This document shows positions 7,652 to 15,330 of a stretch of DNA of 24,183 bases, piece after piece. This DNA comes from a virus. The stretch covers positions 1 to 24,183 of IMG/VR virus record IMGVR_UViG_3300042879_001058. One strand, given 5' to 3'. The notes under the pieces are model-generated. The model was not told the origin of the DNA and did not search any database. It worked only from the letters and a program-made list of their open reading frames with translations. Within the stretch, counting starts at the first letter, position 1; each line of letters opens with the position of its first letter. Made by a program: the position numbers and the translations under genes.

Positions 7652-7749
7652 AAATAATTGATTTTCAATGTTTAATATATCGTTTCAATTGCAACTATTG
7701 CCAAAAACAACCGATTTTGAGGCATTTTTGCCATATTTTGTGCCAAAAA

Positions 7750-7835
7750 CCCCAAAAACCCCCAAAAACTCCCAATCGCCAAAAACCCCTAAGCCCACCA
7801 AAAACTTTCCGCAACAAAAACCCCACAAAAACTCC
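7750..7835 (-). repeat. G-tract array on the minus strand, possible G-quadruplex
   Basis: The plus strand has C runs at 7750-7753, 7759-7763, 7771-7773, 7786-7789, 7794-7796, 7821-7824 and 7833-7835, mostly spaced by A5. On the minus strand, which is the sense strand for the neighbouring genes, this reads as T5-G4/5 units. Consecutive G runs of at least three with loops of 5-12 nt could form a G-quadruplex in single-stranded DNA or in the transcript leader. Confidence 0.5.
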
Positions 7836-7958
7836 CGCGCCAAAAATCTTTCAGACTATTTGGCTAGACCATTTTCCCAATTCACCGCAATTCTCTATAT
7901 ACCCCACCCTATTAAAAAATATAAAAATAAATACCCCCTGGCTAAAATATTAAAAAAA

Positions 7959-13546: not shown

Positions 13547-13745
13547 GGTGAAATTCAAGTATAAATTTTTTATATGGGAATATACCCTGTATCCTATCGT
13601 TTAAATAAACATAAAAATCTTTTTCATCCTGGGCAACTAACTCTTCATCATCATCTCCATATTGGTACTCATCTATTATAATTGAAGTAATTAATTCTCC
13701 ATTATAATCTTTAATTAACATTTTTACTGGTTTATCAAAGTGCAT
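13536..13745 (-). CDS. Hypothetical acidic protein, 69 residues
   Basis: The product starts MHFDKPVKMLIKDYNGE and has an acidic cluster DEYQYGDDDEELVAQDEKD in the middle, then a hydrophobic, aromatic end. I recognise no family. It overlaps the nuclease gene before it and the MazG-like gene after it by about 11 nt each, so it is likely translated as part of the operon. Acidic small proteins can be DNA mimics, but nothing else supports that here. Confidence 0.6.
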   Translation of the reverse strand: MHFDKPVKMLIKDYNGELITSIIIDEYQYGDDDEELVAQDEKDFYVYLNDRIQGIFPYKKFILEFHHDL

Positions 13746-14493
13746 CTTTTTTATATTTTAATTGGTATGAAATATTTCTAGGGGTTACGCCATCATTCAT
13801 TGCTAGCCATAGCTTTTGTGTGCTTTTAAATAGCTCCCAATCTTTTTTAAGCTCGGTCATAGTACGTTGTACAAGCTGCCATCCTTGTCCTTGTATAGCT
13901 CCGCCTTTGCCGCTAGTGCGGGTCTTAGCATTTAGCCATAGTATCCCTACGGCATCTACGTTTAGCTTTTTATGATGCTCTTTGAGTAATTGATGGTAAG
14001 CTGCTAACTGTAACCAGTAAGATGGATAAATGCTATTACTTGTCTTGATGTCAAGAAGCATTGTAAGCGAGCCGAGTCTAATCACTCTATCCAGTGTCCC
14101 CGCAAAGCCGAGCTTGTCGCTCATCAAGTGAACCTCCATCATATCTATTTGAGGATGAAAATTTGTCGAAAATTCGACATAACGCTCAAACATTGACCAT
14201 TCGAGCATCTTATATTGTGGAGTGCCGTAGTCATTAACTAGATTGATCTCCTCATTGCAATCATACCTTTCCGTCAGCTCATGCACTACTGATCCTCGGC
14301 GTCCCGCCTCGTCTCTAATATGGTCGGCATCTGAGCCAACATCTTTAAGCCATTTGTAATACGATGCGTCCTTTGGGTAAGCCTCTAAAATTGTTGTAAC
14401 GCTAGGTAGGTAATTTTCTTTTGGAGAAAGATAAAATCTCGTGTCAATAAATTGGATGCGTTGTCGGTCTAGGTCTAGTTTGTAATTTTTCAT
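13735..14493 (-). CDS. PD-(D/E)xK exonuclease, RecB/Cas4-like
   Basis: A 252-residue nuclease. The core reads GSVVHELTE with H71, an acidic E120 before the MSDKLGFAGTLDRV segment (D135), then LLDIKTSN (D148, K150) and YWLQLAAY (Q162). These are the H, D, DxK and QxxxY motifs of RecB-family nucleases, in the same order and spacing as Cas4 and lambda-exonuclease-like phage proteins. I see no four-cysteine iron-sulphur cluster, so it is not a Cas4 in the strict sense. Processing of DNA ends for recombination or packaging is likely. It lies just after two tRNA-like elements. Confidence 0.85.
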   Translation of the reverse strand: MKNYKLDLDRQRIQFIDTRFYLSPKENYLPSVTTILEAYPKDASYYKWLKDVGSDADHIRDEAGRRGSVVHELTERYDCNEEINLVNDYGTPQYKMLEWSMFERYVEFSTNFHPQIDMMEVHLMSDKLGFAGTLDRVIRLGSLTMLLDIKTSNSIYPSYWLQLAAYHQLLKEHHKKLNVDAVGILWLNAKTRTSGKGGAIQGQGWQLVQRTMTELKKDWELFKSTQKLWLAMNDGVTPRNISYQLKYKKDAL

Positions 14494-14517: not shown

Positions 14518-14671
14518 AGTCAGGGCAGGACTCGAACCTGCATGAACATATCTCGTTATAATCACTCCATTATAACTTAACCACTAAACACATTTCTATG
14601 CGGGGCGCTCGACCATACCCGTATATGTTCTTATGTGTCTTTCTAGCGTCTACCAATTCCGCCACCTGACT
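14518..14671 (-). tRNA. tRNA-Leu-like element with an enlarged middle
   Basis: On the minus strand a perfect 7-bp acceptor stem is formed by AGTCAGG (14671-14665) and CCTGACT (14524-14518); the pairing extends 3 bp into the flanks. A TG linker and a leucine-type D arm GCGGAATTGGTAGACGC (14662-14646) follow, and a perfect T arm GCAGGTTCGAGTCCTGC sits at 14541-14525. Between D and T arms there are 104 nt, where a leucine tRNA has about 35. This middle contains an 8-bp stem (14623-14630 with 14544-14551) enclosing a second 8-bp hairpin (14555-14576). I cannot find a normal anticodon stem-loop. It may be an interrupted tRNA, a fusion of two tRNAs, or a tRNA-like RNA. Confidence 0.5.
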
Positions 14672-14678
14672 TAATTTG

Positions 14679-14729
14679 GTCGCTATATCGGAATCGAACC
14701 GATCACATGCGCTCCATAGCGATAGCGAC
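14679..14729 (-). tRNA. Short tRNA-like element, possibly His-type
   Basis: Only 51 nt. An 8-bp perfect acceptor stem GTCGCTAT (14729-14722) with ATAGCGAC (14686-14679) and a perfect T arm ATCGGTTCGATTCCGAT (14703-14687). Between them only 18 nt: a 4-bp hairpin CGCT-ATGG-AGCG, then CATGTG. Two features point to histidine: an extra G paired with C at the acceptor end, and ATGTGAT, like a GTG anticodon loop, running into the T stem. No complete anticodon stem is possible, so it is either a deleted tRNA or a mini tRNA-like structure. It lies 17 nt after the SSB-like gene. Confidence 0.45.
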
Positions 14730-14745
14730 TAACCTATGAACCAAC

Positions 14746-15330
14746 CTAAAAAGGTGTATCGTCCTCGTTGACATCTGAGAGAACTGGCTTAATGAGAGGT
14801 AAGATAGAATTTTTTACATATTCCTCCAAATATTCCATCCTATCGGTGTCATCCCAAGTTGTAACACCTTTTACCTTTATTTGTTTCAAAGGCGGCAACT
14901 CCCCAGGATTTGCTTTATTCCAAAAATGCTTGAGTCCTACTCCGTTTTGATTGATAAATACTACCGAGCTTTTCTTATCGCCATCGATAGTTAGCTTAGG
15001 AGTGAGAGTAACCAACTCGCTAAAACTCACGTTAGGCAACGCTTTCAGAAAGCTAACTGCATACCCACTGCTATACTTCATCTCCAAAAAGTAAGTATGC
15101 TTATCATCTTTTACACTGACTACCCAAAACTTTCCGTAGTCGCTTTCTTTGGTTTTGATGTCGGCGATAAAGCCACTGAGTGAGTCATAAAACTCCTCGT
15201 GTACTTCTTTACCCATTTTGTTTACTCTTGATACTGATTTGTCAGTAGGCTGCTTGAATTGACGTACAAGTTTGCCGTTTGTGATGGAGAGAAATACTCC
15301 ATTACCGCTTTGATTAGACTGAAGTCCCAT
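14746..15330 (-). CDS. Putative single-stranded DNA-binding protein
   Basis: A 194-residue protein, mostly beta in character, with charged residues spread over the chain (residues 1-20 Gly/Ser/Asn-rich, then strands through about 150). The last residues SDVNEDDTPF form an acidic tail ending in proline and phenylalanine, like the partner-binding tail of bacterial SSB (consensus DDDIPF) and similar phage proteins. The position at the head of the replication unit fits. I cannot confirm an OB fold by eye, so the call rests on the tail and context. It overlaps the previous gene by 17 nt. Confidence 0.6.
   Translation of the reverse strand: MGLQSNQSGNGVFLSITNGKLVRQFKQPTDKSVSRVNKMGKEVHEEFYDSLSGFIADIKTKESDYGKFWVVSVKDDKHTYFLEMKYSSGYAVSFLKALPNVSFSELVTLTPKLTIDGDKKSSVVFINQNGVGLKHFWNKANPGELPPLKQIKVKGVTTWDDTDRMEYLEEYVKNSILPLIKPVLSDVNEDDTPF

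Follow-up and report, generated by a model that had tools for sequence, protein, structure and literature searches.

The window analysed here is the whole of a virus record of 24,183 bp (IMG/VR record IMGVR_UViG_3300042879_001058, positions 1 to 24,183). Its minus strand encodes, at 14671-14518, an RNA of 154 nt in which the acceptor stem, D arm and T arm of a leucine tRNA surround 104 nt without an anticodon arm, as the initial annotation of this locus had described. The parts of the element, which recurs in the related stretches L002 and L026, are as follows.

14518..14671, minus strand: anticodon-less tRNA-Leu-like RNA, 154 nt; identical in L026, 151/154 in L002
14665..14671, minus strand: acceptor stem, 5' strand AGTCAGG; 7/7 pairs, with double changes at all 7 pairs among 34 relatives
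14646..14662, minus strand: D arm GCG-GAATTGGTAGA-CGC, leucine type with G18G19; its sequence is that of a canonical bacterial tRNA-Leu
14542..14645, minus strand: 104-nt middle replacing the anticodon and variable arms, final base U48; 104/104 in L002
14633..14640, minus strand: alternative helix, 5' strand AGACACAU, crossing P2; suboptimal fold, without comparative support either way
14623..14630, minus strand: helix P2, 5' strand GAACAUAU, where an enlarged variable arm would be; from folding
14586..14593, minus strand: alternative helix, 3' strand AUGUGUUU; suboptimal fold
14569..14576, minus strand: hairpin P3, 5' strand GUUAUAAU; from folding
14555..14562, minus strand: hairpin P3, 3' strand AUUAUAAC; from folding
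14544..14551, minus strand: helix P2, 3' strand AUAUGUUC, 2 nt 5' of the T stem; from folding
14525..14541, minus strand: T arm GCAGG-TTCGAGT-CCTGC; T-stem covariation, G-C to G-U in L002
14518..14524, minus strand: acceptor stem, 3' strand CCTGACT; 7/7 paired with AGTCAGG

All seven acceptor pairs form and the stem is lengthened by three more, flanking TTA/TAA; this part of the earlier description holds, as do the canonical D and T arms. Folding also recovers the nested stems that had been read in the middle, an 8-bp helix P2 (GAACAUAU/AUAUGUUC) around an 8-bp hairpin P3 (GUUAUAAU/AUUAUAAC). A fold with the AGACACAU/AUGUGUUU helix is predicted at -42.0 kcal/mol, versus -42.2 kcal/mol for the best fold, and since this helix interleaves with P2, a pseudoknot may form in the middle. 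Predicted energies are mildly better than those of shuffled sequences (z of -1.38 for the middle and -1.75 for the whole 154 nt). This is weak evidence, and thus the case for the element rests on comparison with its relatives. Scans of the window by ARAGORN, and by Rfam at the gathering threshold, returned zero matches, and relaxed Rfam settings gave only sub-threshold tRNA and tRNA-Sec matches. A second D-loop-like string reported inside the middle, TTTAGTGGTTAA, is indeed present at 14588-14577; the tRNA match built on it scores 18.7 bits (threshold 29, E 0.19), and comparison with relatives lends it no support. Of the features of a canonical tRNA-Leu, the 7-bp acceptor, the D arm with GG and a UUCRANU T arm are present in the window, and the 5-bp anticodon stem with its 7-nt loop, U33 and leucine anticodon is missing, as is A73. 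Aminoacylation of the window copy is doubtful because position 73 is U and no CCA is encoded.

The element belongs to a large set of similar loci. All family counts given here come from scans of sequence collections and are lower bounds, and the metagenomic contigs may be incomplete. The 5' signature AGTCAGGTGGCGRAAT(N)GGYARACGC matches at least 120 IMG/VR stretches, giving at least about 125 elements. Among the matches listed, a T arm and a complementary acceptor close 111 of the 118 distinct ones that have enough downstream DNA; the element finder gives 0.35% false positives on shuffled DNA. With other scans included, 147 distinct elements were studied. A search with the leucine D arm only, in which the acceptor was not prescribed, returned a bimodal sample: at least about 56 ordinary tRNA-Leu (79-85 nt, with leucine anticodons) and at least about 25 anticodon-less elements of 93-223 nt. 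The latter have about 20 different acceptors, all paired, and share an ACAGG/GCAGG-type T stem. In 34 bodies, 99.8% of cells are paired and double changes occur at all 7 acceptor pairs. As pairing was a selection criterion, the evidential weight lies on the double changes, which number 109 cells versus 24 in shuffles and likewise far exceed slid controls. The family T loop is UUCRANU, and U48, the last base of the middle and Levitt partner of A15, is kept in 136/147 elements. The Rfam tRNA model, which was not used in discovery, matches several elements end to end with 36-47 bits.

An anticodon arm can be drawn in 8/147 elements, versus 8.5 in shuffles and 65/65 canonical tRNA-Leu. This bears on the suggestion, made in the initial annotation, that the locus is a genuine tRNA with a small intron whose splicing would restore the anticodon arm. 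The insert is structured and lies at the right end of the cloverleaf. However, neither the window nor the family has conserved anticodon-arm halves beside the D arm, the T arm or the insert, at 19-170 nt the inserts have neither the length nor the uniformity of known self-splicing introns, and Rfam detects no intron in the window. We regard this explanation as having hardly any probability left.

Fusion of two tRNAs, also proposed earlier, or decay of a tRNA-Leu into a pseudogene would account for the missing ARAGORN call, the excess length and the D-loop-like string inside. Against both, the two strands of the acceptor stem form all their pairs and change together (AGTCAGG/CCTGACT in the window, AGTTAGG/CCTAACT in L002), and thus both halves belong to one RNA; acceptor and T stems are perfect and covarying over dozens of sequences. 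An intact ordinary tRNA-Leu at this position in related phages, which had been named as the observation that would tell against an unusual RNA, was seen in none of the 80 related loci, and the phages that carry elements can carry canonical tRNA-Leu genes as well. Fusion or decay is thus very improbable.

The middles are diverse and appear to move. Among 149 elements there are about 124 unrelated middle types, 106 of them singletons. Six pairs of stretches have middles that are 85-98% identical within dissimilar 600-nt flanks (L143/L219, L152/L164, L167/L225, L098/L128, L287/L337 and L237/L242); the first five of these pairs reach 95-98%. Middles fold better than their dinucleotide shuffles (mean z -0.81, n=141), and within types, reading by eye suggests two-sided changes in some stems, such as GCAAC/GTTGC and GTAAC/GTTAC in L066/L218. 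A helix beside the T arm was considered as a universal feature and rejected, the enrichment being only moderate (69 versus 43.5). The anatomy, the covariation, the missing anticodon arm, the replaced middle and the recurrence of the same middles in unrelated phages are all read directly from the DNA.

In the window the element lies between two genes of the same orientation, next to a second and smaller tRNA-like element that had been overlooked earlier.

13735..14493, minus strand: downstream gene, Cas4/PD-(D/E)XK-type exonuclease (phrog_298, E 7e-36)
14680..14728, minus strand: minimal tRNA-like element, 49 nt; 11 variants, covariation
14746..15330, minus strand: upstream gene for a 194-aa protein without a PHROG match

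The exonuclease ATG is 24 nt past the 3' end of the 154-nt element. Exonuclease-based scans yielded the 80 related loci, and a geometric scan (acceptor of 7 bp, T stem of 5 bp, T-like loop) placed an element directly before the exonuclease gene, in the orientation of that gene, in 40/80. These form three groups: minimal elements of 49-54 nt, elements of 82-154 nt whose D arm is leucine-like or altered, and an ACAAGGT group (86-106 nt). An ordinary anticodon arm was found in none of the 40. An extra D-loop hairpin, besides the replaced anticodon domain, is seen in L101, L107 and L116 and in the ACAAGGT group (L070, L072, L103). At loci without an element, a simple hairpin or terminator often occupies the same position. 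L018, L061, L064, L117 and L120 have no tRNA-like element upstream of the exonuclease; they have a terminator-like hairpin (recurrent loop GTTTCTACA) and, after it, a T run. Within the subgroup of the window, L003-L008 carry the small element only, and L002 and L026 carry both. The exonuclease genes of the window and L002 agree at 697/759 positions (92%) and the middles at 104/104; the 3 changes in the element are all in stems, with pairing kept. A small recombination tract could explain the identity of the middles in the window and L002. In L026 such a tract is likely because the 200 nt upstream are also identical.

The 49-nt element consists of an acceptor (TCGCTAT/ATAGCGA), a 4-bp hairpin with a loop ending in GG (CGCT-ATGG-AGCG), a 6-nt linker (CATGTG) and a T arm (ATCGG-TTCGATT-CCGAT). 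Over 11 variants 98.3% of cells are paired, 12/16 pairs have changes on both sides, and 0/500 shuffles match this. No variant departs from GG in the hairpin loop or from UUCGA in the T loop, and the hairpin may on this evidence be a reduced D arm. Folding predicts a structure other than the tRNA-like one as the energy minimum, and the small element therefore rests on covariation. A scan for such small elements gave 13 matches in real DNA versus 0 in shuffled DNA, and beyond the 154-nt and 49-nt elements scanning found no others in the window. Elsewhere in the window, 7685-7843 is a low-complexity tract of near-tandem CCAAAA/CCCCCAAAA-like units beside a primase-like gene, which is unusual for this compact genome.

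The family is large, apparently undescribed and, so far as the searches reach, virus-only. In 198 Bacteroidota genomes the AGTCAGG signature does not occur, and the leucine D-arm loci parsed from 395 Bacteroidota genomes are 31/31 ordinary tRNA-Leu. Among 50,697 GenBank phage records there is no exact copy of the signature, and a megablast of the window against GenBank phages gave no match. Megablasts meant to place other family members near named phages gave one weak match, to a Bacteroides phage. Relatives of the exonuclease occur in one Cytophagaceae metagenome-assembled genome and, more distantly, in Flavobacterium phages. A bacterial host in the Bacteroidota is suggested, though not proven. 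The uncultivated podovirus MW202828 has a clear relative, directly behind which lies a minimal element. A looser and unannotated one occurs in the cultivated Leuconostoc phage phiLM33_01 (PV780767, L397 at about 602-712). This candidate has a paired acceptor (TTGACAGG/CCTGTCAA), a leucine-like D arm and no anticodon arm, and its T loop is TGCAAAT, not TTCAAAT. Three other BLAST candidates were rejected: in Pseudomonas phage Kremar the locus is an ordinary tRNA, in Sulfitobacter phage phiCB2047-B the acceptor pairs at 5/7 positions only, and in crAssphage cr4_1 the locus is tmRNA-like. The last (L241:1308-1525) is unannotated and resembles a phage-encoded tmRNA, with a canonical T arm at its end.

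Rfam holds no family for anticodon-less elements, and we found no description of them in the open-access literature, subscription papers and preprints being outside the search. Finders of tRNA genes miss most elements and make a false tRNA call in 36/147 (about a quarter), and errors in phage tRNA catalogues follow from this. Two further kinds of tRNA-Leu locus were encountered. About 20 viral contigs (L247, L255, L262, L266, L269, L273, L294, L301, L327, L338, L340 and others) match an ordinary tRNA-Leu (GCGGATGTGGCGGAATTGGTAGACGCGCTAGTTTCAGGT...) over its 5' half only and then diverge, a pattern that resembles a phage attachment site within tRNA-Leu. A leucine-type tRNA in the 735-kb phage LR756501 (L243:1417-1526) has a plausible CAG anticodon arm and a variable region of more than 40 nt; it is possibly a transitional form that links ordinary tRNA-Leu to the anticodon-less elements.

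The tRNA body could itself be the effector, a decoy that binds a host tRNA factor or a tRNA-attacking defence protein (e.g., leucyl-tRNA synthetase, EF-Tu or a tRNase). Without an anticodon it would be safe from anticodon nucleases and would not disturb decoding. The leucine-type features (D arm, G18G19, U8/A14, A15/U48 and A73, the last in 110/141 family members) would suit such a role, as would the virus-only distribution and the fast turnover among close relatives. The leucyl-tRNA synthetase of E. coli, moreover, does not read the anticodon. However, A73 is not kept in the exonuclease-locus copies (U in the window, often C or G elsewhere), acceptors vary freely and CCA is seldom encoded, so that no synthetase identity is conserved. 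The conserved and mobile middles are also left unexplained by a decoy, and we consider it rather improbable.

Both flanking genes are co-oriented with the element in 100/134 cases, the intergenic gaps are short, a start codon often follows 14-33 nt past the element end, and an open reading frame begins within 60 nt downstream of 69/147 elements, versus 30% of random positions. These observations would fit pure punctuation, in which the element marks RNase P and RNase Z cuts that set where the downstream mRNA begins and the upstream one ends, with the middle as neutral filler. The substitution of simple hairpins or terminators at the same position in relatives points the same way, as does a conserved body with a mostly unconserved middle. 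Punctuation does not account for near-identical middles within unrelated flanks, for middles identical over 104 nt in the window and L002 beside a 92%-identical gene, or for middles that exceed shuffles in structure. It also fits poorly with a 75-kb virus that carries six copies and a 62-kb virus that carries at least five, each within a set of about 27 ordinary tRNAs to which Leu(UAA) and Leu(UAG) belong (L394, L395). Those arrays already provide cutting sites, and thus extra punctuation there would be pointless. We consider punctuation without a working middle unlikely. As the elements coexist with tRNA-Leu genes in these viruses, they do not replace tRNA-Leu.

We favour, at a probability of about one half, the reading that the locus is a member of a viral family of tRNA-Leu-derived noncoding RNAs, in which an anticodon-less chassis would be processed by the host and would carry an exchangeable payload. 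Of the three readings in the initial annotation, the last, a non-decoding tRNA mimic cut by host enzymes, fits best, and it extends to a large family; its processing component remains predicted. RNase Z reads the acceptor/T stack and the D/T elbow, not the anticodon. Bacterial RNase P likewise recognises the acceptor stem and the D and T loops (PMC4919922). The elements retain this acceptor/D/T surface and have U(-1) in 73% and A(-2) in 61% of cases, a bias that appears to fit reported RNase P preferences. From these features, together with co-orientation and start-codon spacing, we infer excision by host tRNA enzymes. Host RNase P and RNase Z would cut the element out of a polycistronic phage transcript, leaving an exonuclease mRNA with a leader of about 24 nt and freeing a stable tRNA-like RNA. 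The tRNA body would serve as a chassis for processing, end protection and perhaps CCA addition. The middle would be the exchangeable part and is a candidate for the working one because it is structured, is transferred as a whole and is present also where punctuation would serve no purpose. An artificial 'tRNA scaffold' is used for expressing RNA inserts, and the proposed payload can be likened to it.

Several observations weigh against this reading. No common motif or target was found among the middles, and antisense matches between a middle and the rest of its contig are at chance level. Searches elsewhere placed the window's middle in two IMG/VR contigs only, with no relative beyond this close pair. 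Encoded CCA is rare in the family, and the simple hairpins that hold the same position at other exonuclease loci would fit a purely cis role there.

Comparison with known systems places the elements near several of them. Canonical phage tRNA-Leu shares with them the D arm, the T loop, U48 and, in most cases, A73, but the elements are longer, lack an anticodon arm and have other acceptor and T-stem sequences. RNA C (species 1) and RNA D of phage T4 are also phage-encoded, lie in a tRNA cluster and measure 119-139 nt; a similar location in tRNA arrays is seen in L394 and L395. RNA C has its own canonical T arm by the 3' end (CCGGG-TTCGAAT-CCCGG) and a weak 5'/3' stem (L396:1409-1547), which suggests that it may be a remote example of the same idea. 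Unlike the elements, the T4 RNAs have no leucine D arm, 7-bp acceptor or match to the tRNA model, and they are one pair, not a family with exchangeable middles.

In tmRNA, too, the acceptor and T arm are kept and a long insert replaces the anticodon arm, and its tRNA-like domain is processed by RNase P (PMC4919922). The elements differ in keeping a true D stem, in their inserts of 19-170 nt and in having no conserved G3-U70 in the acceptors. The tag reading frame and pseudoknots of a tmRNA were not found, there being no ARAGORN tmRNA call and no Rfam tmRNA match. The bacterial Y RNA YrlA has a tRNA-like domain that resembles D, T and acceptor arms (PMC8394870). In YrlA the ends form a separate Rsr-binding stem and the tRNA module is internal, whereas the ends of the elements are the acceptor stem, in normal tRNA order; the window has no Rfam Y RNA match. 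MALAT1 mascRNA, MEN-beta menRNA and plant mitochondrial t-elements are cut by RNase P from longer transcripts, with release of a small tRNA-like RNA, and RNase Z also cuts MALAT1 and MEN-beta (PMC4919922). These, however, are eukaryotic nuclear or organellar and are single loci without variable payloads.

More broadly, and as a tentative view that falls somewhat short of even odds, these elements may be virus-only modular RNA cassettes, in which a fixed, host-matured and anticodon-less tRNA chassis serves to produce and stabilise many unrelated effector RNAs that are exchanged between unrelated phages and kept in tRNA arrays and operons. If they are transcribed and processed, phages use the tRNA scaffold trick, an RNA insert that takes the place of the anticodon arm, at large scale, with well over 100 different payloads in a limited sample. 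The family offers a route into the role of the small stable RNAs that phage tRNA clusters encode, T4 RNA C among them. If the proposal is true, it would represent a large reservoir of phage noncoding RNAs, some of which may be agents of counter-defence or host control.
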